Assembly (NCBI GenBank): GCA_021927905.1
Contig: BLLK01000062.1
Location: 496,001-560,000, forward strand
Direction: 5' to 3'
DNA from: Chaetoceros tenuissimus
Taxonomy: Eukaryota > Bacillariophyta > Thalassiosirophyceae > Chaetocerotales > Chaetocerotaceae
Length of the DNA: 64,000 nt
Shown one piece after another: positions 11,832 through 59,623 of the stretch. The notes under the pieces are model-generated. The model had not been told where the DNA came from. It saw only the letters and a list, made by a program, of their open reading frames with translations, and ran no database searches. Every line of letters begins with the position of its first letter. Position 1 is the stretch's first letter. Position numbers and translations under genes: made by a program.

Positions 11832-12394
11832 GGTGGATGGTAGGTACTACGCAGTAAGATGGTGTGCTTTTATGTTTTATGTTTGCTTCAGCAAGCAGCA
11901 TTTTCCACACGATGTGTCGCCTCTTTCTCTTGCTTGAACCAACACATGTGCTGTTGAAATCTTTTTACTGTTCTTGAGGTTCAGATAGTCATTGTTGGTG
12001 GGAAAGTTTACTCGATATATAAATAGGTTAGGCTAATAGGTATTGGAACCCAGTATCTTGTTTACCGTTGAACGAAAGATGAAAGAAGAAAGATGAGATT
12101 GTTATTTATTTGCGATCAGGTGAGTTCATCTATGTCTTTTTCAATACTTATAATTAGTTTTCCATCTTTTCCAGCTATAACAAGAAACAGTTAGCAACAA
12201 GCCTCCTTCATAGATGTAAGTGACGCCATTTCACCAATGACAACAGAATATATGTACAAAAACCATTCTTCGTCATCATAAACCTTCGTTCTTCACACCC
12301 TCATTCATGATCACATATACATATCCAGATATATCCTCTCCTTCCATCTCCCAAGGCTCAGTCTGAGCAATTACGCCTACATTACACATAGATA
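11832..12394. promoter_or_regulatory. Shared divergent promoter region, unit A
   Basis: A 0.56-kb spacer lies between the coiled-coil gene and the Sel1 relic. It is colinear with 21022-21594 in unit B, including a conserved block around 12035-12064 and the Sel1 5' leader (about 12350-12400). Units C and D carry the palindrome TGACGTCA in the equivalent region; here the nearest match is degenerate (TGACGCCA near 12221). No TATA box can be assigned with confidence. Confidence 0.5.
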
Positions 12395-13229: not shown

Positions 13230-13373
13230 TGGGTATCTACTCCGGTCCAATCAGGCTTTGAACATTTATACATCTAATTTGATGGCATCGTAGGGTTAGT
13301 GTAGGTTCAGATTAATGAAACAATTTCTATTTTAGGATTCTGCATGCTCGTCGATAACAAAAGCAATCACAAA

Positions 13374-16300
13374 TCACACTGGTCGAAGCTTTCTTATCTT
13401 TGTTAAGTCCATCTCGTATTCATCTGTCTCTACAAAATCTTTCAATTTATCGTAAATTGGTTTGATCTCGCAAAAAGCAGAGTATAGTCTGTCGCCTCCA
13501 TCCTTTCCTTCAATGACTTCCATTGATCTACAAGCAAGCTGGGAAGCATTCCTGAGCAATATCCTTCGTTTCTGGACGTTAGTCTCCAACGATGACAGCT
13601 TCAAGCAAATTTCAGCATGTGTAGTCATTGGTCCTCTACCGAAGTTCGCACAAGATGCTTCAACTTGATCGTTCAGTACAAGATTTTTCATATCCATAGC
13701 CCAGTTATAATATTCATCATTGATTTTGTCAATACTTCCTTCAAGATAAAGATCTATATCTAGCAAGACCTTCAATCCTTTGAATGTCGGTTTCATAGGA
13801 GTGAAGCCATCCTTTCCATAATACTGATCAAATGGCTCAAATGCATATTTGAAAAGTAGATCTTGGATTCTTTTGTACTGTTTGTTCGATCTTAATACCC
13901 AAATAATCGGATACAAAATGCACATTGAATTATGAACATTCTTCAAGTCCATAGAAGGAAGTAAGCTATCAATTATCTCATTGATAAGACTCATAGCTTC
14001 TTCATGGCGGTTGAGGTGAACACAGCATATCGCATGGAAACTAAAATCTTGGGCACATCTATCGCTTGCGTAGAGCTCGCTAATTATCGCAGAATGTTTT
14101 CTAGGATCATAGACTTTCTTCAATTCTAGATGAACCTCCGTAGCCTCTTGAAACTTTTCTTCCCTATGTAGAGTCTCGGATTTCATTGCCAGAGCTCTAC
14201 CGTAATGGACAGGATCTCCGTTCCTCTCTGCTTCGAGTACAAAGCTATCTGCAAGTTGAATTTCATAGGAAAGCTGTTCGGACGGAGCCACCACATTTCC
14301 GTATTTGAGTACCATGGACATTCCACTGTATATTGGAAATATAAATGACCTTTGCTCTATTTCGGACGCAACGGGAGCTCTTTTTAATATCTAAAATGTG
14401 GTGAGAAAATGCACTGATATACACAGAGAAAACATTGGTTTTCAAATAGACTTACTGAGAGAGCATCCTCAAATGCATTTTTTGCATAAGAGAATTGTAA
14501 TTTGTTTAACTCATTCGTCTTCTGACTCGGACCGGCAGAACCATGTGCTTGCCCTTTGCAAATTAGCAATTGAATCACTAGTTTTAATGTTTGCTCATCA
14601 AATGACTCTAAAACTTTAGGAGCAAAACCCGAGACTCGACTTTCATCCTCTGCACATTCATATTTCCTCCAAATATCTAAAGCATCATTGTAAACTTCTA
14701 TTCCTTGCTCATTTAATCCAAGTATTTTGAAGCTTTTCCCAACGTTCAAGGCAACTAAAGCCGCTGGGACTTTTTCTTCGGCTTCTCTCCAGTGTCTAAA
14801 AAGTTTCAACTTTATTCTATAGTTTCTCATGCTTTGATTTGGATACATTTCTTCGATGGCGAAAGCAGCATATTTATTTATATCATGTTTGAAGGAATCC
14901 AAGATTATTGACTGAATCAATCTTTTCCAACTGCTGTGCTGGAAGGAGTAGAAGACTTTTCCAACTTCCTCAGTCTCATCTCCTAATTCATCATCATGAT
15001 CATTGATATTATTGTCTATTAGTTCTTCAATTATTCCACATTTCACGGCTTGCTCTAATGCATGTATGACCTCAGCAATATGCTGTTCTCTCTCATCGTC
15101 TCCGATGGACATTAGCCTAGTGGATATTCCTACTATTTCCTCTACTTCAAAAGATGTTCCTATTACACATGCTATTTGAAGTACTTTTCTAGTCATTTCA
15201 TCTAACTTGTCAATTTGCTGAAGGAATATTTCATCAGTATCCGCAAAACGGACGTCATCATACTATGAAATAATTAAAGTTGAGTTCTTAAATCTTGAGA
15301 AGATTCGAATAACATAAACATACATGACTCACCAACGATGTATTCCAACCAATTTTATTATCATTTGTTGTGCCATAGAGCTCGTTCTGGATACAATTTT
15401 TCAGAATCATGGACGTAAAGAGCGCAATCCCCCGCGAGTTCGCATAAATATCTTCTATAAACGAATCATCAATATCTGTAGGATCAGTTTTGAACAATGA
15501 CGAAGCGAATAGTCTCACATCTGCTTTGGAAAGAGGTTCAACATTCATCTCATGAAATTGCCCAGCTTTCTTATGCTTCCCATGCAGTTTCGTCCAAAAG
15601 TCTTCATCAACTGTTAAAGGAATTTCATCTAAAGGTCTAGAGCCACATATTATGGATAAGTTCTTGCCCTGCTCGAATATCCTCTCTATTACTTTCCACG
15701 ATAGATTGTCCATGTACTGCACATCATCGAGCGCCAAAATTATAACGTCGACATGTTCAGAAGACAAAAGAAACACTTGGGCCATGAATGATATAATTTC
15801 GGAGAGTTTCGGCGCTTTTTTCACTTCTTTCATTCTTAGCTTCGAGCTGCCAAGCAAGTGATGACCAACTATTTCTACAAATCCTTCAGGAGCGTTCAGT
15901 TGTATGCAAATCTCTTGCAATCGCTCAAAAATAGACACCCTCTGGGAATCTATCGATGAAATACTACCCGACAGTTTTTGTTGAACAGAGTCAGTTCCCA
16001 GGGACCCCCTCTCAGATTCCTCTCCTTTAGATCCTTCGCTTAGCAAGTCACGAAAGATCGAACGAAAAAGACTGAAAGGTATAAGTTTATCCCCATCGCA
16101 ACTAATATTCCTAGTCACAATTGAACTTCTTTTCCTCAACATGAGCTTCTTCCTACATCGAGCTATCGCTTTTACCATAAGAGAGGTTTTCCCAGATCCC
16201 GAGTCCCCATACATGAAGGTCATTCCTGACTCACATTTTCCTTCTGCTACTTCAATCGTTTTTTGCTCTATTTTTGATAGTTCCTTCTTACGTCCGACAA

Positions 16301-18242
16301 AGTCTGGATCCTCTCTACCCCATCGGGCCTCTTTTGCTGTTAAAGGCTGAAAAACTGGTACAAGATTTGAATACCCTTTAGCTTTTACTGGTGGAAATGC
16401 GATGAAGTTGAACTGCCTAGCTTTCTGGCGAATTTCATCGTCAACAAGAAGACTGTGATTCTTTTTGTGACCCATTAATCTAGCGGCTAAATTCACAGAA
16501 GGTCCAAGTACAGCATATTCATGTCTCTCGACACTACCTACAACTCCACAATAGGCTCTGCCAGAAGTAGCCCCTAATTTGCTATCTATGCCTAAATCGT
16601 TTGCCAATGATTCGTGAATGAACTTACATGTTGGCAATACCCTTTCCGAAATCATGTCAGGAAAAGTTGAACCGCGTAGTCCAAACGTCCCGATGAGTAC
16701 GACACCTTTTCAAAGCAAGACATAAAATCTAGTGAGATGAAGGGTACAAATGACTTGGTATTTACTCTAAACACTCAACCTACCTTTGTCATCAACAATA
16801 TACTGTCGTAGATGACCCTTATAATAATCAAGAGTAGCTGTGACGGTATTCATAATGTTGTTCAAAAGTTCAATAGTTTGATTATTTCTTTTCTCATCAT
16901 GGGACAATCTTGCATCAATTTTTGGCATGATGAAAATTGTCACAACAGATCTAAGCTCTGCTTCTGATCTGAATTTTTCTTTTTCCATACCAAGCATCAT
17001 ATCTCTAGTGCTTGGTTGTTTATAGCGAGGTTCGTGATTTGATGAAGATAAAAGCTTCCGATGTCCATCAGTCAACACAACTGGATGAATATACTGACAC
17101 AGAAGAGATTGGAAACGATGTAGATATTCGATATCTTCTTTCTCTACAATCGACAGTATGTTGTCAGTGACGAGTGACCCTAAAGACAAGGACTTGCCTA
17201 ACATCATGGCAGGCTTTTCAACTTTATGGAAAAAAGCGTCTTCAGCCCTTGCAATCACTATGCTACTGGTATCCTTTGTTTCTATGGGCTGTTTTGTCGC
17301 ATCAAGGTTCAAGTAAGCCTGTGCTTCTACTGAGGCTCGAAGTTCACCCAATTCAGCCAAATCACAGGATTCAGCAACCTGATCAATTGTATCACCCAGA
17401 ACAAGATATTCTTTTCTATGCTCATTTCCAACATGAAGTCCAAACATTTCTCCTACACCAAGTCCACAATGTACGTTCAGAGTTGCCACTGCATCGGTCA
17501 CGTTTCTATTACTCCCAACCAGTTGTTCGTTGTATATTGGATAGTCGGAGCATTTTGCCACAATTTCTGCTCCACAAGTAGCTGCAATATTAACACATTG
17601 TTCTAAATCTAAATGATCTTGCATTCTCCATTCAGCAAAGATTGCATCTCCAGCAAATTTTAGAATGTCACCCTTGTGCGAGATAACCTCATTGCAAATG
17701 GCTTGAAAATAAGAATTAATAGCTTTCGATAGACTTTCCACATCCAACTCTTGTGAGATTTTTGTAAATCCCGACATATCTATAAATAATAGTGCAGCCT
17801 TGTAAGCTTTCTTATGTGGAAGCCGCCTCTGGGGATCATCTCTATTACTCTTTTTGGAACTTTGAAGTGACTTTACACTAAATGCTTTGGCAAGACTCCG
17901 TCTCAACTCTTGCTCATTATTAGGAGCCTGCCAATCAGAAATGGAATATGGATCTTTTGCTTCATGCCTAATGTGTTCTAAAACACATTGAGGTACATGT
18001 CTTCCTAACCAATAAATTGATTCTAGAACAGGGGCTCGTTCATCACTTATATTTGTCTCAATTGATAGCAGACTCGCCATTCGTTCTTTCAAACCCCTAT
18101 CATGTTCTATTATTGCAACATCTTCACTCAGAGGCTTACTTTCATAAATAACTGGTTGATCTATATTATATTCATAAGAATGGACTGATATGGACGTAGG
18201 TGGACCCCTCCTAGAAGAACTAGTGGAACTAGACCATTGCAT
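13374..18242 (-). CDS. Soluble-type adenylyl cyclase, unit A (4 exons, 1551 aa)
   Basis: Exons 16784-18242, 15333-16705, 14456-15262 and 13374-14390 join in frame through GT-AG introns of 65-80 bp. The protein would make cAMP from ATP in the cytosol, like animal ADCY10. The first class III cyclase domain has the metal-binding FIDMSGFT and KFAGDAIF aspartates. The second carries the SGRAYCGVVGS and LGPSVNLAARLMG motifs typical of sAC. An NTPase module follows, with Walker A (GDSGSGKTS) and Walker B (VIILALDD), then a helical TPR-like C-terminus. Compared with unit C, the first ~35 residues are missing: homology stops near 18231 and the ATG at 18242 is supplied by chance sequence. A 2-bp indel near 13410 also replaces the last ~20 residues. 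It may be expressed, but both ends are altered. Confidence 0.8.
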
Positions 18243-20265: not shown

Positions 20266-21021
20266 CTACTCATTCCAGCCACGTCTGATGGCAGTCTCAT
20301 GCCAAACTTCATCCCAATACTCAGAATCTCTTGGATTTCTCCTGAATCTAATTACATAGTTGTCATTTGGACCAACTTTCAGGATTTCTCCATTCCAAAG
20401 TTCAGCTAAACCAGTGGTGACTTTGCTGTGTTCAAGCCAGTAGACATGAACCTTCTCCCCCTCATAGAATGAGCCTAACTTGTCAAGTTCTGCGTCCTTG
20501 TTGGCAAGAGCTTGTTTGGTATTCTTCTTCACATTGACAAGTTCTGCGTCCTTGTCGGCAAGAGCTTGTTTGGTATCCTGAAGCTGTTCTCCAAGTGCTT
20601 GAATTGTTGCAATTGCTTCAAGAAGCTTTAGCTCAATGCCTTCTTTCTTGGATAGAATTTGCATACCACAATTGATGAGTTCACAAATATCATCTGTGGC
20701 TTCGGCAAGTTTTGCCTCTAATTCCTCCTTCCTCATGGTGGTGGTGTCAGTAGAAGGCATTGTCTCCTGCAAGTTGTGTACAGACGAATCATCAATGGCA
20801 GCACTGGGAACGACGGAGGTATCAGCAAGGTTGTTATTGATATCTTCAGTGAGTTCTGCCTCGAATTCCTCCCTGTTCTCCTCAGTGGCCTTGGAGGAGA
20901 CAACAGTATAATTCTTGAAGGGAGAACTTGGAACAAGGGGGGTACCAGCATCTCGTCCCATTTGCATACTACGTGAAGCAAGTGGTGAAAACAGAGATTC
21001 AGGTGGAGAATGATCGCACAT
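20266..21021 (-). CDS. Coiled-coil protein with C-terminal barrel-like domain, unit B (251 aa)
   Basis: Paralog of the protein at 10545. The ATG at 21021 aligns with the unit A start; the frame stays open upstream to 21087, but that part is 5' leader. The N-terminal third (TPLVPSS, EEFEAELTED) matches unit A, and the hydrophobic segment is missing. The coiled coil contains a short duplicated motif (TKQALADKDAEL / TKQALANKDAEL). The C-terminal domain is intact: VHVYWLEH, LWNGEI, VGPNDNYVIRFRRNP and WHETAIRRGW. This copy gives the frame that unit A has lost. It is divergent from the Sel1 gene at 21595. Function unknown. Confidence 0.7.
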   Translation of the reverse strand: MCDHSPPESLFSPLASRSMQMGRDAGTPLVPSSPFKNYTVVSSKATEENREEFEAELTEDINNNLADTSVVPSAAIDDSSVHNLQETMPSTDTTTMRKEELEAKLAEATDDICELINCGMQILSKKEGIELKLLEAIATIQALGEQLQDTKQALADKDAELVNVKKNTKQALANKDAELDKLGSFYEGEKVHVYWLEHSKVTTGLAELWNGEILKVGPNDNYVIRFRRNPRDSEYWDEVWHETAIRRGWNE

Positions 21022-21594
21022 AATGGAAGGTAGGTACTGCACAGAAAGTTGATGTGCTCTTATTTTTATGAGCAGCATTTTCCACACATGTGTCCCTGCT
21101 TTCTCTTGCTTAACACATGTGCTTTTGGATCTTTTTCCTGTTTGAGATTTGAGAGGTGTAGTCTTGTTGGTGGGAAAGTTTACTCGGTATATAAGGTTTG
21201 GCTAATAGGTATTGGGACCCAGTATCTTGTTCTACCGTTGACTGAACGAAAGAAGATGAATTTGAAAGAAGATGCATAGGAAGTTTCTATTTATTTGTTA
21301 TCAGGTGAGTTCATCTATGTCTTTTTCAATATATAATTAGTTTTCCATCTTTTCCAGCTATAACAAGAAACAGTTAGCAACAAGCCTCCTTCATAGATGT
21401 AAGTGACGCCATTTCACCAATGACAACAGAATATATGTACAAAAACCATTCTTCGTCATCATAAACCTTCGTTCTTCACACCCTCATTCATGATCACATA
21501 TACATATCCAGATATATCCTCTCCTTCCATCTCCCAAGGCTCAGTCTGAGCAATTACGCCTACATTACACATAGATATCTTGTCACGTACGAGT
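21022..21594. promoter_or_regulatory. Shared divergent promoter region, unit B
   Basis: Colinear and very similar to the unit A spacer (11832-12394), including the conserved block at about 21206-21236 and the Sel1 5' leader. It lacks the perfect TGACGTCA palindrome found in units C and D. Confidence 0.5.
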
Positions 21595-22425
21595 ATGATT
21601 CTAATCAAGTCTATTTCTAGAGTAGCAGCAGGGCGCCAGATTACTAGATTCAGAAATGGATCATCAATTTGCATCCTAAACGTACATTCAAAAAGCTATG
21701 CTCCTTTCAATACTCCTTACGTCAACAATATTAACTTGAGTGAATCTTTCCGGCAATTCTCCATCGATAACAAGTCCAACCTTGGTCAAGAATATTATGA
21801 AAAGGCAAAACAACATTTACGCCAACATGAAAAATCTCTTCAAGAAAAACAGCAACAACAAGAAAATCAACAATATAATTCCAAAAGTGGACTACAAGTT
21901 GTCAAAAAGATTATCAATCAAGTTCGTCAAGAGCGTAAAGAACAATTGAATGGAATTGAAATTCATCACTCGCAAGTCAAGGAGAAAGCGAATGATTTAG
22001 AGTTGGCAAAGGAGTATATGCAAATTGCTGCATTTTGGCATGGATTTAATCATGCGATTGTATCACTTGCCAATGATTTATTGACTCAACAAGATTTTAA
22101 TTTGGAAAAAGAGTTGAAATATGTGTATGCCTTGGATCATAATGATTTAGTTTTTGATTTGGGAGAGTTGCAACGTTGTCCTAGTGGAGCTCATGTAGCT
22201 GTGAAACTGTATGAATTCGCTGGAGCGAATGATTGTGCTGAAGCGTGGTTTAATCTCAGTCATTTGCTTTGGATGGGACATGAAATTGAAAATAATGAAG
22301 AGAAAAGTATAGAAGCTGATATGGAAAGGGCGATGGAATGTTTTGATAAGGCGGTGAAACTTGGTGATGACGATGTAAAACTAAAGCAAAGTAATTATAA
22401 ATACTACATTGTCACTACTTTTTGA
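21595..22425 (+). CDS. Truncated mitochondrial-type Sel1 protein, unit B (276 aa)
   Basis: Begins at the first ATG (21595), giving an N-terminus rich in basic and hydroxyl residues (MILIKSISRVAAGRQITRF) that looks like a mitochondrial presequence. A Gln-rich charged helix follows, then one to two Sel1-like repeats (AGANDCAEAWFNLSHLLWMG). After VKLGDDD the homology to the full-length protein at 57891 stops and 15 unrelated residues end the frame. The frame is open throughout, so the product may be made, but it lacks most Sel1 repeats. The first ~390 bp match unit A and the rest matches unit C, so the copy is a mosaic. Confidence 0.65.
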   Translation: MILIKSISRVAAGRQITRFRNGSSICILNVHSKSYAPFNTPYVNNINLSESFRQFSIDNKSNLGQEYYEKAKQHLRQHEKSLQEKQQQQENQQYNSKSGLQVVKKIINQVRQERKEQLNGIEIHHSQVKEKANDLELAKEYMQIAAFWHGFNHAIVSLANDLLTQQDFNLEKELKYVYALDHNDLVFDLGELQRCPSGAHVAVKLYEFAGANDCAEAWFNLSHLLWMGHEIENNEEKSIEADMERAMECFDKAVKLGDDDVKLKQSNYKYYIVTTF

Positions 22426-22522
22426 TGGGTATCTACTCCGGTCCAATCAGGCTTTGAACATTTATACATCTAATTTGATGGCATCGTAGGGTTAGTGTAG
22501 GTTCAGATTAATGAAACAATTT

Positions 22523-23554
22523 CTATTTTAGGATTCTACATGCTCGTCGATAACAAAAGCAATCACAAATCACACTGGCCGAAGCTTTCTTATCCTTGTT
22601 AAGTCCATCATTGTATTCATCTGTCTCTACAAAATCTTTCAATTTATCGTAAATTGGTTTGATCTCGCAAAAAGCAGAGTATAGTCTGTCGCCTCCATCC
22701 TTTCCTTCAATGACTTCCATCGATCTACAAGCAAGCTGGGAAGCATTCCTGAGCAATATCCTTCGTTTCTGGACGTTAGTCTCCAACGATGACAGCTTCA
22801 AGCAAATTTCAGCATGTGTAGTCATTGGTCCTCTACCGAAGTTAGCACAAGATGCTTCAACTTGATCATTCAGCACAAGATTTCTCATATCCATAGCCCA
22901 GTTATGATATTCTTCATTGATCTTGTCAATACTTCCTTCAAGATACAGATCTATATCTAGTAAGATCTTCAATCCTTTGAATGTTGGTTTCATAGGAGTG
23001 AAGCCATCCTTTCCATAATACTCATCAAATGGCTCGAATGTATATTTGAAAAGTAGATCTTGGATTCTTTTGTACTGTTTGTTCGATCTTAATACCCAAA
23101 TAATCGGATACAAAATGCACATTGAATTATGAACATTCTTCAAGTCCATAGAAGGAAGTAGGCTATCAATTATCTCATTGATAAGACTCATAGCTTCTTC
23201 ATGGCGGTTGAGATGAACACAGCATATCGCATGGAAACTAAAATCTTGGGCACATCTATCGCTTGCGTAGAGCTCGCTAATTATCGCAGAATGTTTTCTA
23301 GGATCATAAACTTTCTTCAATTCTAGATGAACCTCCGTAGCCTCTTGAAACTTTTCTTCCCTATGTAGAGTCTCGGATTTCATTGCCAGAGCTCTACTGT
23401 AATGGACAGGATCTCCATTCCTCTTTGCTTCGAGTACAAAGCTATCTGCAAGTTGAATTTCATAGGAAAGCTGTTCGGACGGAGGCACCACATTTCCGTA
23501 TTTGAGTACCATGGACATTCCACTGTATATTGGAAATATAAATGATCTTTGCAA
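22523..23554 (-). pseudogene. Adenylyl cyclase last exon only (unit B)
   Basis: An open frame matches the final exon of the cyclases at 13374 and 27774 (TPR-like helical region, ending in CDCFCYRRACRILK). The match stops at about 23554 inside the exon; beyond it lies a repeat that is an inverted copy of 48.0-49.35 kb. Both cyclase domains and the NTPase module are absent. This is a truncated gene copy, kept open perhaps only because it is recent. Confidence 0.88.
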
Positions 23555-26482: not shown

Positions 26483-26845
26483 GGCAAGATAGTATACAGT
26501 CGATGTGTTTTTTATGTAAAGGTGAATGAAGAGTGAAGTGAATTCGGCTTCAGCAAGCATCAAGCTCAACGGCGATTCTTCATTCGTGAAAAGATGCATT
26601 GCAGCATTTTTACCATCTGTCTTATTTTTGATGTGTTCAACGTACGTCATAGTTGGAAACAAATACGTGACGTCATTACACCAGTGTCAACAACAAAACC
26701 ACTCTTCGCCATATTCATCACCTTCACATTCATTTTAGTCTTCACTCAATCTCAATTACATATTATTATCCTCTCTTCCATCTCCCAAGGCTCAGTCTGA
26801 GCAATTACGCCTACATTACACATAGATATCTTGTCGCGTACGAGT
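26483..26845. promoter_or_regulatory. Divergent promoter region with TGACGTCA, unit C
   Basis: Spacer between the short coiled-coil gene and the Sel1 copy. The palindrome TGACGTCA lies at 26668-26675, close to a GTACGTCATAGTTGG block that is also present in unit D. TGACGT(CA) is the core recognised by CREB/ATF-type and other bZIP factors; in diatoms such elements occur in CO2/cAMP-responsive promoters (established for Phaeodactylum). A function here is inference. Confidence 0.45.
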
Positions 26846-27676
26846 ATGATTCTAATCAAGTCTATTTCTAGAGTAGCAGCAGGGCGCCAGATTACTAGAT
26901 TCAGAAATGGATCATCAATTTGCATCCTAAACGTACATTCAAAAAGCTATGCTCCTTTCAATACTCCTTTCGTAAACAATACTAACTCGAGTGAATCATT
27001 CCGGCAATTCTCCATCGATAATAAGTCTAACCTCGGTCAAGAATATTATGAAAAGGCAAAACAACATTTACGCCAACATGAAAAATCTCTTCAAGAAAAA
27101 CAGCAACAACAAGAAAATCAACAATATAATTCCAAAAGCGGACTACAAGTAGTTAAAAAGATTATCAATCAAGTTCGTCAAGAGCGTAAAGAACAATTGA
27201 ATGGAATTGAAATACATCACTCGCAAGTCAAGGAGAAAGCGAATGATTTAGAGTTGGCAAAGGAGTATATGCAAATTGCTGCATTTCGGCATGGATTTAA
27301 TCATGCGATTGTATCACTTGCCAATGATTTATTGACTCAACAAGATTTTAATTTGGAAAAAGAGTTGAAATATGTGTATGCCTTGGATCATAATGATTTA
27401 GTTTTTGATTTGGGAGAGTTGCAACGTTGTCCTAGTGGAGCTCATGTAGCTGTGAAACTGTATGAATTCGCTGGAGCGAATGATTGTGCTGAAGCGTGGT
27501 TTAATCTCAGTCATTTGCTTTGGATGGGACATGAAATTGAAAATAATGAAGAGAAAAGTATAGAAGCTGATATGGAAAGGGCGATGGAATGTTTTGATAA
27601 GGCGGTGAAACTTGGTGATGACGATGTAAAACTAAAGCAAAGTAATTATAAATACTACATTGTCACTACTTTTTGA
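26846..27676 (+). CDS. Truncated mitochondrial-type Sel1 protein, unit C (276 aa)
   Basis: Same architecture as the unit B copy: basic presequence-like N-terminus, Gln-rich helix (EKQQQQENQQ), one to two Sel1-like repeats, and the foreign tail ending YYIVTTF. The start is the ATG at 26846. The frame is intact. It differs from unit B mainly in the first 130 codons and is nearly identical in the second half. The parent at 57891 has about four further Sel1 repeats that are absent here. Confidence 0.65.
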   Translation: MILIKSISRVAAGRQITRFRNGSSICILNVHSKSYAPFNTPFVNNTNSSESFRQFSIDNKSNLGQEYYEKAKQHLRQHEKSLQEKQQQQENQQYNSKSGLQVVKKIINQVRQERKEQLNGIEIHHSQVKEKANDLELAKEYMQIAAFRHGFNHAIVSLANDLLTQQDFNLEKELKYVYALDHNDLVFDLGELQRCPSGAHVAVKLYEFAGANDCAEAWFNLSHLLWMGHEIENNEEKSIEADMERAMECFDKAVKLGDDDVKLKQSNYKYYIVTTF

Positions 27677-27773
27677 TGGGTATCTACTCCGGTCCAATCA
27701 GGCTTTGAACATTTATACATCTAATTTGATGGCATCGTAGGGTTAGGGCAGATTAACATTAATGAAACAATTT

Positions 27774-30700
27774 CTATTTTAGGATTCTACATGCTCGTCG
27801 ATAACAAAAGCAATCACAAATCCCACTGGCCGAAGCTTTCTTATCCTTGTTAAGTCCATCATCGTATTCATCTGTCTCTACAAAATCTTTCAATTTGTCG
27901 TAAATTGGTTTGATCTCGCAAAAAGCAGAGTATAGTCTGTCGCCTCCATCCTTTCCTTCAATGACTTCCATCGATCTACAAGCAAGCTGGGAAGCATTCC
28001 TGAGCAATATCCTTCGTTTCTGGACGTTAGTCTCCAACGATGACAGCTTCAAGCAAATTTCAGCATGTGTAGTCATTGGTCCTCTACCGAAGTTAGCACA
28101 AGATGCTTCAACTTGATCATTCAGTACAAGATTTTTCATATCCATAGCCCAGTTAAAATATTCATCATTGATCTTGTCAATACTTCCTTCAAGATACAGA
28201 TCTATATCTAGTAAGATCTTCAATCCTTTGAATGTTGGTTTCATAGGAGTGAAGCCATCCTTTCCATAATACTCATCAAATGGCTCGAATGCATATTTGA
28301 AAAGTAGATCTTGGATTCTTTTGTACTGGTTGTTCGATCTTAATACCCAAATAATCGGATACAAAATGCACATTGAATTATGAACATTCTTCAAGTCCAT
28401 AGAAGGAAGTAGGCTATCAATTATCTCATTGATAAGACTCATAGCTTCTTCATGGCGGTTGAGATGAACACAGCATATCGCATGGAAACTAAAATCTTGG
28501 GCACATCTATCGCTTGCGTAGAGCTCGCTAATTATCGCAGAATGTTTTCTAGGATCATAAACTTTCTTCAATTCTAGATGAACCTCCGTAGCCTCTTGAA
28601 ACTTTTCTTCCCTATGTAGAGTCTCGGATTTCATTGCCAGAGCTCTACCGTAATGGACAGGATCTCCGTTCCTCTCTGCTTCGAGTACAAAGCTATCTGC
28701 AAGTTGAATTTCATAGGAAACCTGTTCAGACGGAGGCACCACATTTCCGTATTTGAGTACCATGGACATTCCACTGTATATTGGAAATATAAATGACCTT
28801 TGCTCTATTTCAGACGCAACGGGAGCTCTTTTTAATATCTAAAATGTGGTGAGAAAATGCACTCATATACAAAGACAAATCATTGATTTTCAAATAGACT
28901 TACTGAGAGAGCATCCTCAAATGCATTTTTTGCATAAGAAAATTGTAATTTGTTTAACTCATTCGTCTTCTGACTCGGACCGGCAGAACCATGTGCTTGC
29001 CCTTTGGAAATTAGCAATTGAATCACTAGTTTCAATGCTTGCTCATCAAGTGACTCTAAAACTTTCGGAGCAAAACCCGAGACTCGACTTTCATCCTCTG
29101 CACATTCATATTTCCTCCAAATATCTAAAGCATCATTGTAAACTTCTATTCCTTGCTCATTTAATCCAAGTATTTTGAAGCTTTTCCCAACATTCAAGGC
29201 AACTAAAGCCGCTGAGTTTTTTTCTTCAGCTTCTCTCCAATGTCTGAAAAGTTTCAACTTTATTCTATAGTTTCTCATGCTTTGGTTTGGATACATTTCT
29301 TCGATAGCGAAAGCAGCATATTTATTTATATCATGTTTGAAGGAATCCAAGATTATTGACTGAATCAATCTTTTCCAACTGCTGTGCTGGAAGGAGTAAA
29401 AGACTTTTCCAACTTCCTCAATCTCATCTCCTAATTCATCATCATGATCACTGATTTTATTGTCTATTAGTTCTTCAATTATTCTACATTCCACAGCTTG
29501 CTCTAATGCATACATGACCTCAGCAATATGCTGTTCTTTCTCATCGACTCCTATGGACATCAGCCTAGTGGATATTCCTACTATTTCCTCTACTTCAAAA
29601 GATGTTCCTATTACACATGCTATTTGAAGTACTTTTCTAGTCATTTCATCTAACTTGTCAATTTGCTGAAGGAATATTTCATCAGTATCCGCAAAACGGA
29701 CATTATCATACTATGAAATAATTAAAGTTGAGTTCTTAAATCTTGAGAAGATTCGAATAAGATAAACATACATGACTCACCAATGATGTATTCCAACCAA
29801 TTTTATTATCATTTGTTGTGCCATAGAGCTCGTTCTGGATACAATTTTTCAGAATCATGGACGTAAAGAGCGCAATCCCCCGCGAGTTCGCATAAATATC
29901 TTCTATAAACGAATCATCAATATCTGTAGGATCAGTTTTGAACAATGACGAAGCGAATAGTCTCACATCTGCTTTGGAAAGAGGTTCAACATTCATCTCA
30001 TGAAATTGCCCAGCTTTCTTATGCTTCCCATGCAGTCTCGTCCAAAAGTCTTCATGAACTGTTAAAGGAATTTCATCTAAAGGTCTAGAGCCACATATTA
30101 TGGATAAGTTCTTGCCCTGCTCAAATATCCTCTCTATTACTTTCCATGATAGATTATCCATGTACTGCACATCATCGAGCGCCAAAATTATAACGTCGAC
30201 ATGTTCAGAAGACAAAAGAAACACTTGGGCCATGAATGATATAATTTCGGAGAGTTTCGGCGCTTTTTTCACTTCTTTCATTCTTAGCTTCGAGCTGCCA
30301 AGCAAGTGATGACCAACTATTTCCACAAATCCTTCAGGAGCGTTCAGTTGTGTGCAAATCTCTTTTAGACGCTCAAAAATAGACACCCTCTGGGAATCCA
30401 TCGATGAAATACTACCCGACAACTTTTGTTGAACAGAGTCAGTCCCTAGGGACCCCCTCTCAGATTCCTCTCCTTTAGATCTCTCGCTTAGCAAGTCACG
30501 AAAGATTGAACGAAAAAGACTGAATGGTATAAGTTTGTCCCCATCGCAACTTATATTCCTAGTCACAATTGAGCTTCTTTTCCTCAACATGAGCTTCTTC
30601 CTACATCGAGCTATCGCTTTTACCATGAGAGAGGTTTTCCCAGATCCCGAGTCCCCATACATGAAGGTCATTCCTGACTCACATTTTCCTTCTGCTACTT

Positions 30701-32786
30701 CAATCGTTTTTTGCTCTATTTTTGATAGTTCCTTCTTCCGTCCTACAAAGTCTGGGTCCTCTCTACCCCATCTTGCCTCTTTTGCTGTTAAAGGCTGAAA
30801 AACTGGTACAAGATCTGCATACCCTTTAGCTTTTACTGGTGGAAATGCGATGAAGTTGAACTGCCTAGCTTTTTGGCGAATTTCATCGTCAACAAGAAGA
30901 CTGTGATTCTTTTTGTGACCCATTAATCTAGCGGCTAAATTCACAGAAGGTCCAAGTACAGCATATTCATGTCTCTCGATACTACCTACAACTCCACAAT
31001 AGGCTCTGCCAGAAGTAGCCCCTAGTTTGCTATCTATACCTAAATCGTTTGCCAATGATTCGTGAATGAACTTACAAGTTGGTAATACCCTTTCCGAAAT
31101 CATGTCAGGAAAAGTTGAACCGCGTAGTCCAAACGTCCCGATGAGTACGACACCTTTTCAAAGCAAGACATAAAATCTAGTGAGATGAAGGTTACAAATG
31201 ACTTGACTTTCACTCTAAATACTCAACCTACCTTTGTCATCAACAATATACTGTCGTAGATGACCCTTATAGTAATCAAGAGTTGCTGTGACGGTATTCA
31301 TAATCTTGTTCAATAGTTCAATAGTTTGATTATCTGTCTTCTCATCATGGGACAATCTTGCATCAATTTTTGGCATGATGAAAATTGTCACAACAGATCT
31401 AAGCTCTGCTTCTGATCTGAATTTTTCTTTTTCCATACCGAGCTTCATATCTCTAGTGCTTGGATGTTTATAGCGGGGTTCGTGATTTGATGAAGATAAA
31501 AGCTTCCGATGCCCATCGGTCAACACTACTGGATGAATATACTGACACAGAAGAGATTGGAAACGATGTAGATATTCGATATCTTCTTTCTCTACGATCG
31601 ATAGTATGTTGTCGGTGACGAGTGACCCTAAAGACAAGGACTTGCCAAATGTCATTATGGCAGGCTTTTCAACTTTATGGAAAAAAGCGTCTTCAGCCCT
31701 TGCAATCACTATGCTACTGGTATCCTTTGTTTCTGTGGGCTGTTTTATCGCATCAAGGTTCAAGTAAGCCTGTGCTTCTACTGAGGCTCGAAGTTCACCC
31801 AATTCAGCCAAATCACAGGATTCAGCAACCTGATCAATTGTATCACCCAGAACAAGATATTCTCTTCTATGCTCATTTCCAACATGGAGTCCATGCATTT
31901 CCCCTACACCAAGTCCACAATGTACGTTTAGAGTTGCCACTGCATCGGTCACGTTTCTATTACTCCCAACCAGTTCTTCGTTGTATATTGGATAGTCGGA
32001 ACATTTCGCCACAATTTCTGCTCCACAAGTAGCTGCTATATTAACACATTGTTCTAAATCTGAATGATCTTGCATTCTCCATTCAGCAAAGATTGCATCT
32101 CCAGCAAATTTTAGAATGTCACCCTTGTGCGAAATAACCTCATTGCAAATGGCTTGAAAATAAGAATTAATAGCTTTCGATAGACTTTCCACATCCAACT
32201 CTTGTGATATTTTTGTAAATCCTGACATATCTATAAAAAGTAGTGCAGCCTTGTAAGCTTTCTTTTGTGGAAGTCGTCTCTGTTGATCATCTCTATTACT
32301 CTTTTTGGAACTTTGAAGTGACTTTAGACTCAATGCTTTGGCAAGACTCCGTCTCAACTCTTGCTCATTATTAGGAGCCTGCCAATCAGAAATGGAATAT
32401 GGATCTTTTGCTTCATGCCTAATGTGTTCTAAAACACAGTGGGGTACATGCCTTCCTAGCCAATAAATTGATTCTAGAACAGGGGCTCGTTCATCACTCT
32501 TATTTGTCTCAATCGATAGCAGACTCGCCATTCTTTCTTTCAAACCCCGATCATTTTCTATAATTGCTACATCTTCACTAAGAGGCTTACTTTCATATAT
32601 AACTTGTTGATCTATATTATATTCATTAGAATGGACTGATATGGACGTAGGTGGACCCCTAGAAGAACTAGTGGAACTAGATATGACTTCTGTACTGGTC
32701 AATCGAGAAATCACATTGTCTTCTTCTTGATGGGGCCTCTCCTTTTCTTCTTTTACACTCTCTGTTGTGCTGTGTGAATTTCCCAT
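27774..32786 (-). CDS. Soluble-type adenylyl cyclase, unit C (4 exons, 1599 aa)
   Basis: Exons 31232-32786, 29781-31153, 28904-29710 and 27774-28838 join in frame through GT-AG introns. This is the most complete cyclase here. It starts with MGNSHSTTES, a possible N-myristoylation signal (Gly2, Ser6), so it may be membrane-tethered. Cyclase domain 1 spans about residues 178-370, with metal-binding Asp186 and Asp230 in FIDMSGF and KFAGDAIF. Cyclase domain 2 spans about 475-610, with SGRAYCGVVGS and NLAARLMG. The NTPase follows: GRKKEL near 656, Walker A about 685-693, Walker B about 838-846. The remaining ~700 residues are helical and TPR-like. The length and the order C1-C2-NTPase-TPR match ADCY10, whose animal members respond to bicarbonate. 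The bicarbonate site cannot be judged by eye. Confidence 0.92.
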
Positions 32787-33181: not shown

Positions 33182-34895
33182 TTAATAATCACTGCCACCC
33201 TTTTCTTCTTCATTTGATACACCAACATCAACCATATTTTTAGCATGAGTTGCCAAATGTGGATGACTACGAGCTACATCAATTGCGAGGTTCAAAAGAT
33301 GCTCACAGGACTGTGATGCAAATGCAGAAATGGCAAGTGATTTCATGTCCTCTTCAGCTTTATTGGAGACGTTTCTCTGTGCGCTCATTCCAATCTCTAC
33401 CGCAGCAATACCATCTTCAAGACTTACATCAGGGATGAATGTACCATTATGTTTCCTATTTTCGAAGAATGAGATTAGTGAAGTCAATTCAGTGTCCATT
33501 ACCCAGGAATAAAAAGTGAAAAGAATCTGACTTACCAGCTTTCTACTTGATCAATCAGCAACTACCATTGTAGTAGGGTCGGAAAGCATATAGATGAGTA
33601 TGAGAACGATGATAAAAGTGGTACTTGAGATATTGATCACAATGAAGAAGACCTTAAAGTTGAGTGTTCTCTTACCTTCCATTCGACCGCGGTGGAGCAA
33701 TAATGGTGACCTGCATGTTTTGGAATTTCGTCTGCAAATTCATAGACATTACTGAGATCAGAACAATCGATTATTGTCTCTTGAATGGATTCTTTTGGTG
33801 GTGGTAAAGTTCTATCTGTCCAAGTTTCATTTGTTGGTCTAAGGTAATGGAACACTTTGTTCTCTTTTCACACGCAAAGAATTAGATATTTCTAGATAAC
33901 GTATTAGATCAACGTACTTGTTCAAAATCTTACCTGGCAAATACGCTTCTACTCTTCCTTTCAAACCTGTTACGATGATTTCTTCTTGATGTCTCGATCC
34001 ATCGGCAAACATGCAAAGCTCAAGACAACCAAGAGTATTCTGCTGACGTGAAGCAGTGGAAAAGCTTCTATGGAATTTGCTCTCATTTTGAGAATTCTTG
34101 TCTTCAAAGTCAAGAAGCACATATGCTGAGTCAATGATTGGAATTGGATTATCCAATCTCTTATCATAGCCGTAATGATCATCCAACAGCCCTCTATGTA
34201 CTTTGGAAGTGCATGACATCATCTCTTGATCACTTAACAACCGAAAGAGGTCAAAAAAGTGACAGCATTTTTCAACCAAAGTATCCCCAGTTTTATTTAT
34301 ATCTTTATTCCATTCCTGCACTTTTGACAGAAACGGAAAGCGATTCTCTCTAATTGTAATCTTTTTGACCGGCCCAATTGTAGGAAGAAGTTGGTAGAGT
34401 TTCTGAATTGCAGGAATAAATCTGTAGTTGTGGAAGAGCCAATAAGCATACGCGAATGCAGCTATGAAACTATCTAAATCTATAGCACATGGCTTACCTA
34501 TATTCCATTGCAACCCATATCTTTGCTTTAAATGAAGCACTTGATGCTTTTAATGCTTGCACTTGCTTCTCACTAATGGCAACAGGCTTTTCGACAAGAA
34601 TCACAATATCAAAGTGTGCCCAACGAAGAATATGAGGAGTATGCATATAGTTTGGAGTTGCGATAACTAGCAAGTCTATTCCGTCAACCCTTTCAAGAAG
34701 TTGTTTCTCTGCATGAAATAGCTCAGGCTTTACATCGGACGATACCATGGAAGCAGCTTTATACAACATTTCGTTATTGGAGTCACAGAGATATTGAATG
34801 CTGATTTGAGAATATTTCTCCATGTAAGAAATATGCTCTTGACCCATCATCCCACAGCCAAGGACTGCAACGCGAATTTTACTTTCATCACTCAT
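33182..34895 (-). CDS. Gfo/Idh/MocA-family oxidoreductase (4 exons, 469 aa)
   Basis: Exons 34498-34895, 33934-34421, 33676-33854 and 33182-33526 join in frame through GT-AG introns of 76-149 bp. The Rossmann fold starts at once with VAVLGCGMMGQEH (GxGxxG); ATPNYMHTPH and VEKPVA are the usual nicotinamide-side motifs, with the conserved Lys of EKP. The C-terminal half carries EKCCHFFDL, the family's substrate/catalytic His-Asp region. These enzymes oxidise or reduce sugars, inositols and related compounds with NAD(P). The length is above the usual 330-400 because of a C-terminal extension. The gene is divergent, 419 bp away, from the dioxygenase-AKR fusion, so the two may act in one pathway. 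The third intron (33527-33675) has more than one possible acceptor. Confidence 0.88.
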
Positions 34896-35314
34896 CTTGG
34901 ATCAAACAATAGTGTTCTATGACGAGTGTTTCTTTCAAAATTATGATTGCAAGTCTTCATGTTCGTGGCTGAAGGAACAAATTGATTTGGGGTATTTGCA
35001 TGAAGCTATTGATTGGAGGCTTCATAAATGTTTTTGACACTTTGATGGATAAGTCGTGCTTTTCAAAGAAGAAGTAGACACAGACATGTCAAAACTGCAA
35101 CTTTTACGCCGTCAACTTACTAAATTAGAGAAAAATGAGTGTTTCTGACACCCGCAATTTCATCCAAGATTGTGATGGAATCCATCACCTGAAGGCACCA
35201 AAAGAAAATGAATCCAAAAGATTCAACTGTGCAGATCACATATTTTTAAGCTTTGTTTTAAACATCACGTGAAGGAAGGAGAGCGCATATTCATATCGCG
35301 ACAAAAGAGAAAAC
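34896..35314. promoter_or_regulatory. Divergent promoter region, oxidoreductase / dioxygenase-AKR
   Basis: A 419-bp spacer between two divergent start codons. Both promoters must lie here. No TATA box or known element can be assigned by eye. Confidence 0.5.
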
Positions 35315-37559
35315 ATGTCGAAGCAACTCATATTTTCGCGCTTGTTTGAAAATATTCATGAGAGGGAACCTCTTGGTGCATCTCTTGATCAAAATCAATT
35401 CATTGAGCTTTTGTCAAAACATAAAGCTCTTCTGGTGCAATCAAAGGATGGTGAAGAACCTCTGTCAGTCAATGAATTTGGGAAAATAATTTATGACCTA
35501 GGTTTGCAGCACTATCCATATGTGGGAGGTGCAGCACCTAGAAGAATCATTCCAGTCGATGTTCCAGGAGGCGACAACATGATTTATACAGCAAATGAAG
35601 CACCACCAGATCAACTTATTCCATTCCACCACGAGTTGGCACAAACCTCAAATCCTCCAGAGTATATTTTCTTCTATTGTGAGCAACCATCTGAAACAGG
35701 TGGAGAAACTGCCCTCATTGACTCCACTCTTGTATATCGGTTTGTAAACGATAATTTCCCATCTTTTATGGAAAAATTGAAATTGCACGGGTGAGTTAAA
35801 TTTTCGTTTTGCTGTTCAAAGAAGTTAATTTATGTCAAGACTCATCCTATCTCTCTCGCTCCTAGTGCTCGCTATGCAAGAACTCTTCCTCCTCAAGATG
35901 ACAAAACATCTCCTATCGGAAGAAGTTTCTACAACACTTACCAAGTCAAAACTATTGAAGAAGTTGAAGCCAAATTGAATAAAATTGTTGGTTTGGACTA
36001 TACTTGGTTACCTGATGGCTGTCTACGTGTAGTATCAGAGCCTGTGTCAGCTGTGAGGTTTATCGATCAGCAAAGTTCCAGTAATTTTATTCACCAGTAC
36101 ACTTTTCATAATAGGTGAGTCTTTGTAAAAGAGTAAATGTAGATGTATACAAACAAGAAACCTAATGACTAACCTTTGTAACAGTGTGATTGCAGCTTTT
36201 ATCGGATGGGAGGATTGTAGAAATGATCGCAAAAAAGCAGTCCGCTTTGGAAATGATGAGGAAATGGATGAAAATGTTCTTGAAGCCATTGCAAAGTTTA
36301 TGGAAGAAAATAAAGTCAATTACACTTGGAAAAAAGGAGATTTCTTTGCATTGAATAATCGCCTTGTTATGCACTCGCGTAATGCATATACTGGTACACG
36401 TCGTGTCTATGCAGCAATGTTTGGAGGACCGTTGTCAGACCAATCAAACCCAAATTCCTCTCTTCAACCACGTAGCACTTCTATTGCCGATCCTACAACA
36501 TTTGGTTGTTGGAGACTTGATAATCCAGAAGAAACTGTTTACAATGCCATCAAGAATGGATATCGACGCATTGACTGTGCTTGTGATTATGGTAACGAAA
36601 AAGAAGTCGGGCGAGGTATCTCAAGAGCTATCAATGATGGTATTTGTTCTCGTGAAGACTTGTTCATTACATCAAAATTATGGAATACATACCATGCCCC
36701 AGAACATGTACCTCTTGCTTGTAATAAATCCTTGAACGATCTTGGCCTGAGTTACATCGATGAGTAAGTAACAGCTTGGTGGGTTGTATTCCGCAGTTTT
36801 TCACTTCTCTAACCTTACATTGGTATAGGTACCTCATCCATTTTCCTATTTCTATGGAATTTATTCCTTTTGGTAAGTATATGCAGTTCATCTTCTTTAG
36901 CAGTTCTCATCCACTACCTGCGACTCACACACTCAACCCCTATTTCAAATAAAGACAAAAAGTATCCACCTGAATGGCAAAACCTCGAAGGACAAATGGT
37001 ATTAGTAAAAAATGATATCAATCAAACCTGGAAAGCTATGGAGTCTCTTGTTAGATCACAAAAAGTCAGAAGCATTGGTTTGAGTAACTTCAACTGTCAA
37101 CACATTCGCCAGATATTATCTATTGCGGAGATTCTACCATCGACTCTTCAAATCGAATGCCATCCACATTTGTCTCAGTCAAAACTTATTCGCTTTGCTA
37201 GAAGCTGCAACATGAATGTTTCTGTATTCAGCCCAATGGGAGCAACTTCATATATTAGTCTTGATATGGCAACGAACGATGACGTGCTTTTTCAAAATCC
37301 AATCATTGAAAGATTAGCCAAGCATCACAGAAAGACTCCAGCTCAAATCATGTTACGTTGGGCTATTCAGCGCAACACAATTCCAATCAGTAAAAGTTCT
37401 TCATCTACTCGTATGATCGAGAATAGAAGCCTATATGACTTTTACTTGAGCAAGGAAGACGTGTCACTTATCGATGGTCTAAACAAAAATAGAAGATACA
37501 ACGATCCAGGTGTCTTCTGTGAAGAGGCTTTCGGTACATTCTGCCCAATCTATGAATAA
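35315..37559 (+). CDS. Fusion of Fe(II)/2-oxoglutarate dioxygenase (TauD-like) and aldo-keto reductase (5 exons, 650 aa)
   Basis: Exons 35315-35790, 35866-36114, 36185-36763, 36829-36872 and 36955-37559 keep one frame through four GT-AG introns. Residues 1 to about 355 form a TauD/TfdA-like dioxygenase of the SyrP-like type: [10 protein letters not shown] supplies the iron-binding HxE, and [14 protein letters not shown] supplies the distal His and the 2-oxoglutarate Arg. After a short linker (about 355-370) comes an aldo-keto reductase similar to xylose/aldose reductases. It has all four catalytic residues: Asp and Tyr in [12 protein letters not shown], Lys in FITSKLWN and His in YLIHFPI. IPISKSS and NRSLYDF are the NADPH-binding loop. 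The order suggests a product hydroxylated or cleaved by the first domain and reduced by the second. Exon 4 is only 44 bp and codes the catalytic His strand. The substrate is unknown. Confidence 0.9.
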
Positions 37560-38048
37560 CTTTGCAATCTTAAATGCAGAATAGCGGAAATTTTTAAAAA
37601 TATCTTGGTGAATACAGCTCCTTGCCCGTGTTTTGAATCGTAAAAGTAGGTAAAAGTACAAGGTTCTCTCTTGGTCGATGAATTCATGTTATTGTTTAGA
37701 ATATGGTACAAGTTCAAGATGCAGGGATAACTCAATAACGTTCATCATTTGTTTAGACTACTATTTCCAACCCAACTCGGTTTGAAACTTGAGTCGTGAA
37801 TCTTTGAGCCAAAAATGGTTGATAAACTAGCTATTTTTGGTAAAGTTCCAAGTTTTTCCGAAATGACTTTGACACTTTTTCAAACGGAAAAGATTGCTCC
37901 TCATTCTGACGTACTTTAGCTATTTCACGCCGAAATTGGACTGGATGTGCAACGTATTGAGTGATAAAAGCAAACTTGTATTGGTGCAATACTCGTACCT
38001 ATCCCTATCCCAACTTGTTCATCTATCTCACCAAACAGAAGGCGCAAA
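37560..38048. other. Intergenic region, nothing recognised
   Basis: Spacer between two genes on the plus strand. It should hold the 3' end of the fusion gene and the promoter of the surface-protein gene. No repeat or RNA gene was noticed. Confidence 0.5.
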
Positions 38049-39200
38049 ATGAAGTTCTTTCTAGCATCAGTCATACTTTTTCTAGCTTCACCACCTTGTG
38101 AATCATCTCCGAGCGGAGCATCGCATTGTTTCAGCGGTATCTCGTCCATGCAAAATACATTTCATGGTACTATTGGAAGTGGATCATTGCTAGATGGCAA
38201 TTATCAATTGCATTTTCTTGACAAAGAGAGCGAAACATATACGCCTATAGAGTCAATCACGGATTCAGATGGAAATATAGTCAAGATAGATTTGTTCAAA
38301 GATGCATCTGCATCGAGTCATAAACATGTACTATCTCTCAAAACAACAGCCTTTGATACAAAGTTTCGAGGTTTTCTTCTTCGATTAAGTGCTACAGATG
38401 ACACAGAAAAAGATGTTAGCTCTTATTTATCCATTAGTGATTCATACTCTCAACTTTCTCGGACTCTTGAAATATGTGATGAAAAAGTATCAGGTCTAAC
38501 ACATAATAGCCCAATGGATAAGGAAGAGATTCAATTTGAACTTCTTCATAATGAGGCTATCAACTTGACATTGGAAATTACTGTAGTGGAGAAAAATAAG
38601 CCTTCTGGCTCCAATCTTTGGTATTATGAAATGTATCAATTTCAATTGAGAGATACAATGGATGATTTGAAGGAGTCCTCACAACCTAGTGAAAGTAGTG
38701 GGAGTAGTACGAGCCCGAGTATATCCATTGCGAAGGAGTCATCGCAACCAAGTGAAAGTAGTGGTAGTAGTATGAGTCCGAGTATATCCATGGCTCCTTC
38801 TCCTGAATCGATAGTTGGAGATGAAAACAGTTTAACAACGAATGAAGAAACAAACGCACCAAGCACTGTAACAACTACGATTGTAGAAGACGAATCCATG
38901 AGTCCAAGCATATCCCCATCTCCGAGTGTTTCACTTTCACCAAGTATTTCCCCAAGCAAATCCACATCACCTAGTGTATCAATACATCCAAGCGCTATAC
39001 CGAGCGTTTCATTTTCTCCTTCGACATCAAACACTCCCACAGTTGGAGAAACATCTGAAGCTACAATAATAGGAAAGAGTAACTCGGAAGATGATGTGAA
39101 AGATGATCCAACAAGTAATGGTAGTTCCTACAAAATGCAAAACTACAATGGAATATATTCATTGCTCCTTTTTATATCGTTCTGTTTTGGTATATTCTAA
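38049..39200 (+). CDS. Secreted Ser/Pro-rich, GPI-type surface protein (383 aa)
   Basis: The N-terminus MKFFLASVILFLASPPCESS is a clear signal peptide. Residues ~30-205 form a globular domain, which I do not recognise, with paired cysteines possible (Cys18, Cys27 and one near 144). Residues ~210-340 are low complexity, with a duplicated SSQPSESSGSS.SPSISMA unit and many SPSxS repeats, a pattern frequent in diatom cell-wall and surface proteins. The last ~15 residues are hydrophobic (YSLLLFISFCFGIF) after a polar stretch, as in GPI-anchored proteins. It is likely displayed on the cell surface and O-glycosylated or phosphorylated in the repeat (inference). Confidence 0.75.
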   Translation: MKFFLASVILFLASPPCESSPSGASHCFSGISSMQNTFHGTIGSGSLLDGNYQLHFLDKESETYTPIESITDSDGNIVKIDLFKDASASSHKHVLSLKTTAFDTKFRGFLLRLSATDDTEKDVSSYLSISDSYSQLSRTLEICDEKVSGLTHNSPMDKEEIQFELLHNEAINLTLEITVVEKNKPSGSNLWYYEMYQFQLRDTMDDLKESSQPSESSGSSTSPSISIAKESSQPSESSGSSMSPSISMAPSPESIVGDENSLTTNEETNAPSTVTTTIVEDESMSPSISPSPSVSLSPSISPSKSTSPSVSIHPSAIPSVSFSPSTSNTPTVGETSEATIIGKSNSEDDVKDDPTSNGSSYKMQNYNGIYSLLLFISFCFGIF

Positions 39201-59246: not shown

Positions 59247-59623
59247 ACTCGTACCGGTACGCGACAAGATATCTATGTGTAATGTAGGCGTAATTGCTTA
59301 GACTGAGCCTTAGGAGATGGTAGGAGAGGATTTAATATGTAATTGAGGGTGAAGAACTCTGATGAATGTGATGAATTATGACGAATGACGAAGAGTGGTT
59401 TTGTTCGTCATCTTCGTCATTGGTGTGTAATGACGTCACGTGACTTATATGTCTGTTTCCAACTATGACGTAGCAAGGTTTAAGTTTCAACAAATGTTGG
59501 AAAGACAGATGCTGCATTGCATCTGTTCACGAATGAAGAATTGCAGTTGATGCTTGCCGAAGCACGAATTCACTCCACTCTTCATTCACCTTCACATAAA
59601 ATAACTTTTCCGTGTAGTAAACC
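59247..59623. promoter_or_regulatory. Divergent promoter region with TGACGTCA/CACGTG, unit D
   Basis: A 377-bp spacer. TGACGTCA (59431-59438) overlaps the palindrome TCACGTGA (59436-59443), giving a composite CRE/G-box. Sequence on both sides is conserved in unit C's spacer. The Sel1 5' leader (about 59250-59310) is conserved in all four units. bZIP or bHLH binding is an inference. Confidence 0.5.

Follow-up and report, generated by a model that had tools for sequence, protein, structure and literature searches.

A dioxygenase–aldo-keto reductase fusion gene paired with a GH188-like gene in the diatom Chaetoceros tenuissimus: a probable eukaryotic form of the sulfoquinovose dioxygenase pathway known from bacteria

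Sulfoquinovose is produced at about 10 billion tons a year (PMC10755693), and in the bacterial sulfo-SDO (sulfo-ASDO) pathway it is degraded by enzymes encoded in two separate genes. As described in the literature, the iron- and 2-oxoglutarate-dependent dioxygenase SqoD of Marinobacterium aestuarii yields sulfite and 6-dehydroglucose, and the PF00248 protein SquF reduces 6-dehydroglucose to glucose (PMC12890257, PMC9594981). According to PMC13372026, sulfo-SDO occurs in Oceanospirillaceae, Alteromonadaceae and some Vibrio, and all of these are also represented among the dioxygenase loci described below. The founding member of family GH188, SqgA (PDB codes 8qc2, 8qc3, 8qc5, 8qc6 and 8qc8), is described as using NAD+ for a transient oxidation at C3, with net hydrolysis of sulfoquinovosides, and the same paper ends its representative sulfoglycolytic and sulfolytic (SMO/SDO) gene clusters with that of Marinomonas ushuaiensis (PMC10755693), an entry that in our own reading stands for sulfo-SDO. 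Sulfoquinovose degradation is reported from algae and plants, and breakdown of the sulfolipid SQDG from sulfate-starved green algae (PMC5638391). A 2022 review describes eukaryotic sulfoquinovose-degrading enzymes as still not known (PMC9594981), and a 2026 review states that no such pathway has been characterised in eukaryotes or archaea (PMC12890257). GH188 proteins of plants and a red alga already figure in PMC10755693, and a review credits those of marine algae to Ma et al. 2025, so that the GH188 half of the gene pair described here is not new. In our literature search, subscription papers apart, no eukaryotic sulfoquinovose dioxygenase or dioxygenase–aldo-keto reductase (AKR) fusion appeared among the matches listed.

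The locus lies in a window of 64,000 bases, the whole stretch of C. tenuissimus DNA that was analysed and to which all coordinates refer unless a bacterial locus is named. Of 63 light-harvesting matches in the genome, one fits FCPI-7 of PDB 6ly5 and Lhcr11 of 6l4u, both structures from Chaetoceros gracilis, better than any other entry (346 and 338 bits, the next at 227), and a G+C content of 0.36–0.45 along the window is in keeping with the 38.9% given for C. tenuissimus NIES-3715 in PMC8613185, whose assembly has 85 scaffolds as compared with the 68 contigs used here. The fusion gene (35315–37559, plus strand) consists of five exons separated by four GT–AG introns of 65–82 bases, and encodes 650 amino acids and a stop codon in one frame. 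Exon 1 (35315–35790), placed by its splice sites, frame and Pfam TauD match, contributes the iron-ligand motif H105-H-E107 of the dioxygenase, which continues through exon 2 (35866–36114; splice sites and frame). Exon 3 (36185–36763) holds the fusion junction, with the end of the dioxygenase (H305 and R314), a linker of about 25 residues and the start of the AKR (D372, Y377 and K406); exon 4 (36829–36872) adds the catalytic H439, and exon 5 (36955–37559) completes the AKR with a C-terminal tail of 23 residues, close to that of the bacterial operon AKRs, and the stop. Both domains exceed the curated Pfam cut-offs: TauD at residues 18–316 (93.7 bits, E 2.3e-26; genomic span 35366–36407 including introns), the predicted sulfoquinovose dioxygenase, and Aldo_ket_red (PF00248) at residues 357–626 (137.6 bits, E 6e-40; 36528–37484 including introns), the predicted 6-dehydroglucose reductase. 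Alignment recovers the H-x-E...H and Arg set for iron and 2-oxoglutarate in the first domain and the D-Y-K-H tetrad in the second, which we take to be the catalytic positions of the two families. The preliminary description of this DNA had proposed a single reading frame joining a TauD-like dioxygenase, with HxE...H and the 2-oxoglutarate Arg, to an AKR with all four catalytic residues, next to a divergent gene of Gfo/Idh/MocA type, and each of these points holds.

The two domains are joined whole inside exon 3, where no stop codon separates the conserved dioxygenase Arg (near 36400) from the AKR part (from about 36492), since the linker provides about 25 residues ahead of the GFGxW motif, as compared with the 10–20 or so with which the bacterial operon AKRs start in the rows printed. 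An in-frame methionine is found at residue 320 and the next one only at residue 444, so that an AKR-only protein could begin from an AUG only at Met320, in the late dioxygenase part. If two genes had been wrongly joined here, an internal promoter giving rise to a separate AKR transcript, that transcript would have to rely on this sole methionine between the domains, and the junction would still lie inside an exon that is free of stops; we consider this barely credible, and infer from the gene structure a single transcript and a single protein. A six-frame search, in which introns were disregarded, found one such fusion in the genome of 41,027,912 bases, and no Rfam family matched between 33 and 38 kb of the window. 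Bacterial contamination is made unlikely by the four introns and the 2.4-Mb contig, and was discarded on these grounds. A viral or phage origin was also discarded: none of 6 and none of 99 pattern-matched viral stretches was confirmed, and no phage record matched.

Head to head with the fusion gene, and with its start codon 419 bases away across an intergenic region (34896–35314) that may contain a shared promoter, lies a gene of four exons on the minus strand, which is the single match of its kind in a six-frame search of the genome. Exon 1 (34498–34895) encodes a Rossmann fold with K103 and Y132, exon 2 (33934–34421) the sulfonate-binding R160, L164 and K166 together with E183 and H187, and exon 3 (33676–33863) H349; the 5′ border of exon 4, which includes the stop (33182–33526), is the least certain splice site, and extra residues are present there relative to the bacterial rows. 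Compared with all PDB sequences, the protein is closest to 8zn9 (8.4e-49; entry title 'Oxidoreductase, putative'), 8qc2 (7e-43) and 8qc3 (9e-40), followed only at 1.1e-9 by the next entry. An inositol-type dehydrogenase was considered for this gene and rejected, the GH188 entries being far ahead in the search. SqgA is thus represented among the three best solved matches, and all seven sulfoquinovose contacts that could be mapped (K107, Y136, R166, L170, K172, E189 and H193 in SqgA numbering) are identical in the diatom protein, as K103, Y132, R160, L164, K166, E183 and H187, respectively. The mapping rests on a constant offset of 13 between the printed 8qc3 sequence and the numbering of PMC10755693 at all seven residues checked; by the same count Glu163 of that paper falls at position 164, which is also conserved.

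Six of the seven contacts occur in all 74 bacterial GH188 partners described below, and K107 in 73 of them; the sulfonate triad R166, L170 and K172, given in PMC11465081 as present in 98.3, 96.0 and 96.7% of GH188 sequences, is found in 74/74. A histidine common to all 74 bacterial rows aligns with the diatom H349 and is a possible equivalent of H321, before which the 8qc3 piece compared comes to an end. The diatom protein is 31–41% identical to the bacterial partners (60 of the 74 compared), differs from them at other conserved columns, including D173, I174 and D179, and has a longer C-terminus. It is most likely an NAD+-dependent glycosidase of family GH188, a predicted sulfoquinovosidase, and not a third net redox enzyme.

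For the dioxygenase domain, a PDB search at E 0.001 returned only two distinct sequences, 9yut (5.7e-60) and At3g21360 of Arabidopsis (PDB code 1y0z; 6.6e-56). The first is 94% identical, over the 276 residues compared, to the Marinobacterium protein of locus L042, one of three Marinobacterium loci (with L030 and L036) that carry the same kind of dioxygenase gene beside GH188, and the tie of the diatom domain to the characterised SqoD appears to run through this genus and cluster. As bacterial relatives we used the best 80 of 93 confirmed by a scan of genome contigs, which by name are mainly marine (Marinomonas, Marinobacterium, Vibrio, Saccharospirillum, Reinekea, Erythrobacter, Hyphomonas and uncultured gammaproteobacteria). 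Identity of the diatom domain to any of the 80 is at most 41%; it matches 52 of the 66 columns that are conserved in at least 97% of them and departs from the other 14. A quick tree without bootstrap, with 51 rows taken from 40 of the 80 loci together with two PDB pieces, eight outgroup sequences and the diatom domain, places the diatom domain with the Marinobacterium–Marinomonas half and At3g21360 at 86 SH-aLRT, on a long branch that leaves the placement unsure. Classical taurine dioxygenase TauD has the ligand motif HxD and was rejected as an identity for the diatom domain, where the motif is HxE.

The plant protein At3g21360 belongs to the same dioxygenase group as the diatom domain, to which it is 38% identical over the aligned part, but it is a stand-alone enzyme, named clavaminate synthase-like, whereas the diatom domain is fused to an AKR. 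On this comparison the plant protein, whose structure is solved, becomes a candidate for a sulfoquinovose dioxygenase of plants. It is 54% identical to the member at myxobacterial locus L029 (positions 5881–6858 of that locus) and 45% identical to the one at Marinobacterium locus L042 (5899–6879), and its fold matches that of a modelled Marinobacterium dioxygenase with a TM score of 0.93. At L029 an AKR lies about 4 kb away, and no GH188 is found within the flanks.

Linkage was counted at the 80 bacterial loci with flanks of up to 6 kb on each side of the dioxygenase. A GH188 homolog was found within the flanks at 74 of the 80, on the dioxygenase strand at 70 of these 74. At 41 loci the GH188 gene, an AKR of a group that we term c3 and the dioxygenase form an uninterrupted run on the same strand, and at 25 GH188 occurs with an AKR of a second group, c9; the remainder have GH188 without either AKR group (8 loci), c9 alone (3) or none of these (3). 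The six loci without GH188 are explained in part by flank length: ten bacterial genomes searched whole gave one GH188 match below 1e-25 each, with the next best no better than 1e-7, and the strong match fell inside the fetched locus in nine of the ten and, for L062, 2.4 kb outside it, on a contig of equal length that is taken to be the same one. The linkage to a Gfo/Idh/MocA-type gene for which the preliminary description had proposed a search among stramenopiles and haptophytes is conserved in bacteria; genome comparisons here covered prokaryotes, viruses, plasmids and, as the sole eukaryote, C. tenuissimus.

Eight plasmid loci with distant TauD relatives (8 of 20 listed, 78 found; 26–31% identity) served as a control, and the PLSDB gene tables, which are incomplete, list neither a Gfo/Idh/MocA nor an AKR neighbour at any of the eight. 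Five of the eight lie within peptide-synthetase clusters, as would be expected if the fusion acted on an unrelated substrate in the manner of the amino-acid hydroxylases of such clusters and its GH188-like neighbour were coincidental. This is highly improbable, since the GH188-linked dioxygenase group, including the diatom domain, is split from these distant rows at 99 SH-aLRT, and the link to GH188 recurs at nearly all of the bacterial loci.

The fusion itself has no counterpart in the bacterial material. Dioxygenase frames at the 80 loci are 302–387 residues long, so that none of them is fused, and no match spanned both domains in 659 sampled proteobacterial genomes. One sample consisted of 274 gammaproteobacterial genomes and the other of 385 from alphaproteobacteria, the centre genome being counted in both cases; at a threshold of 1e-30, 7 and 9 of them matched, respectively, and all six AKR matches below 1e-90 in the two samples lie beside the dioxygenase, with weaker AKR matches elsewhere. 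With the dioxygenase ahead of the AKR, the fusion has its domains in the opposite order to the genes at the 41 c3 loci, and mere loss of a stop codon in such an operon is therefore not how it came about.

The AKR domain is 43–51% identical to the c3 operon AKRs and 46% identical to two fungal xylose reductases (PDB codes 5zci and 1jez), which we take to be members of AKR2B. In the tree, the diatom AKR, the c3 group and the fungal enzymes are not separated, and the rows nearest to the diatom AKR by path are those of c3. The fusion also keeps the C-terminal tail of the bacterial operon AKRs: after an N-D-P motif the diatom protein and six operon AKRs read G and then PIY, whereas the two xylose reductase pieces read W and end there. 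Because the tree does not set it apart from the xylose reductases, a substrate like that of these enzymes may still apply to the fusion AKR. The AKRs of the Marinomonas-type clusters (c9) form a separate group at 97 SH-aLRT, with the diatom AKR outside it, and for this reason the diatom domain may work like SquF, yet is not taken as its ortholog.

The diatom locus shares with the sulfo-SDO pathway of Marinobacterium, Marinomonas and Vibrio the same dioxygenase group, a GH188 partner and an AKR, and differs from it in that the two separate bacterial genes correspond to one fused gene, and, from the Marinomonas-type clusters, in the AKR group and in a TRAP transporter. The M. ushuaiensis locus (L053) encodes DctM, DctQ, an AKR of c9, GntR, GH188 and TauD, after which come a lytic transglycosylase and genes for cobalamin. 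Of its 12 kept frames 10 were scanned, and none of the 10 is a flavin monooxygenase. Among the 39 loci that lack c3, 32 have TRAP-transporter clusters. The 41 c3 loci have a frame of a sodium symporter cluster at 35, of a GH42 beta-galactosidase cluster at 18 and of an OpuAC-type transporter cluster at 9, where the Pfam naming of each cluster rests on one scanned member. The GH42 neighbours suggest joint use of galactolipid head groups beside those of sulfolipid. At four Erythrobacter loci (L094, L096, L097 and L107) the GH42 frame stands directly ahead of GH188. Five Saccharospirillum and Reinekea loci (L047, L050, L051, L054 and L062) contain frames of a PF03601 cluster and a LysR cluster, one member of each having been scanned; PF03601 is presumably the family behind the annotation 'putative sulfate exporter' at one of the control plasmid loci, and its protein may export the sulfite formed.

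This variety of c3 neighbours means that the exact substrate may vary, and the same three-gene logic could serve a sugar or osmolyte, sulfonated or related, other than sulfoquinovose, from which the diatom enzymes or the whole group would have drifted. The long branch of the diatom dioxygenase and its departures at conserved columns are in keeping with such drift, but the sulfonate triad and the other mapped sulfoquinovose contacts are unchanged in the diatom GH188-like protein, and the triad is without exception in the bacterial partners, which makes a different substrate unlikely. We favour the reading that the gene pair represents a eukaryotic form of the sulfoquinovose dioxygenase pathway known from bacteria, and on sequence grounds assign it a probability of about 0.82, a figure set slightly lower on account of the AKR tree.

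From the observed gene structure, protein families, conserved residues and bacterial linkage, a substrate, an order of reactions, channelling and a role can be proposed. The GH188-like enzyme would free sulfoquinovose by NAD+-assisted hydrolysis from sulfoquinovosyl-glycerol, the head group that the plastid sulfolipid SQDG leaves on delipidation. The dioxygenase domain, with Fe(II), 2-oxoglutarate and O2, would then oxygenate C6 of sulfoquinovose to give 6-dehydroglucose, an aldehyde, with sulfite, succinate and CO2, and the AKR domain would use NAD(P)H to turn 6-dehydroglucose into glucose, the fusion of the two domains keeping the aldehyde local. Inspection by eye reveals no obvious plastid presequence in either protein, and both are therefore likely to be cytosolic. 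The probable use is recycling of the carbon and sulfur of the cell's own SQDG, the alternative being uptake of sulfoquinovosides from seawater. The preliminary description had the first domain hand a reactive aldehyde or ketone to the second, which would agree with 6-dehydroglucose and its reduction; its three-activity redox locus is borne out as a gene pairing but probably not as a third redox step, given the net hydrolysis expected of GH188, and the substrate that it left as unknown is most likely sulfoquinovose, to judge from the GH188 contacts and the bacterial linkage.

The locus offers a directly testable candidate, of two genes, for sulfoquinovose breakdown in a eukaryote, in which the fusion would bring together two steps, and the reactive aldehyde between them, in a single enzyme. 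A wider proposition, on which we are evenly divided, would make this diatom the first eukaryote seen to have a complete sulfolytic pathway for sulfoquinovose, in which a GH188 sulfoquinovosidase and a bifunctional sulfoquinovose dioxygenase/6-dehydroglucose reductase recycle the cell's own plastid sulfolipid; At3g21360 would fill the same role in plants, and photosynthetic eukaryotes may share one oxygenolytic route for degrading the sugar that they produce. On the side of sulfolipid synthesis, a table in PMC7281551 gives three presence marks, which we take as MGD, SQD1 and SQD2, for four Chaetoceros entries. A DNA pattern for UDP-sulfoquinovose synthase, built from a motif of this enzyme, had no match, and the motif was not found at the loci of 15 epimerase candidates scored of 64; both results are uninformative as to absence.

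Two further features of the window may be noted. A segment of 5.9 kb is duplicated at 12332–18233 and 26767–32681 with 96% identity, parts of it occurring again at 20805–23552 and 58461–59605; the second copy contains AAA-ATPase-like and guanylate-cyclase-like frames, and its end and the stop codon of the GH188-like gene are about 500 bases apart. Downstream of the fusion, the product of the next gene (37968–39200) has many Ser-Pro repeats and matches the Reeler domain weakly.
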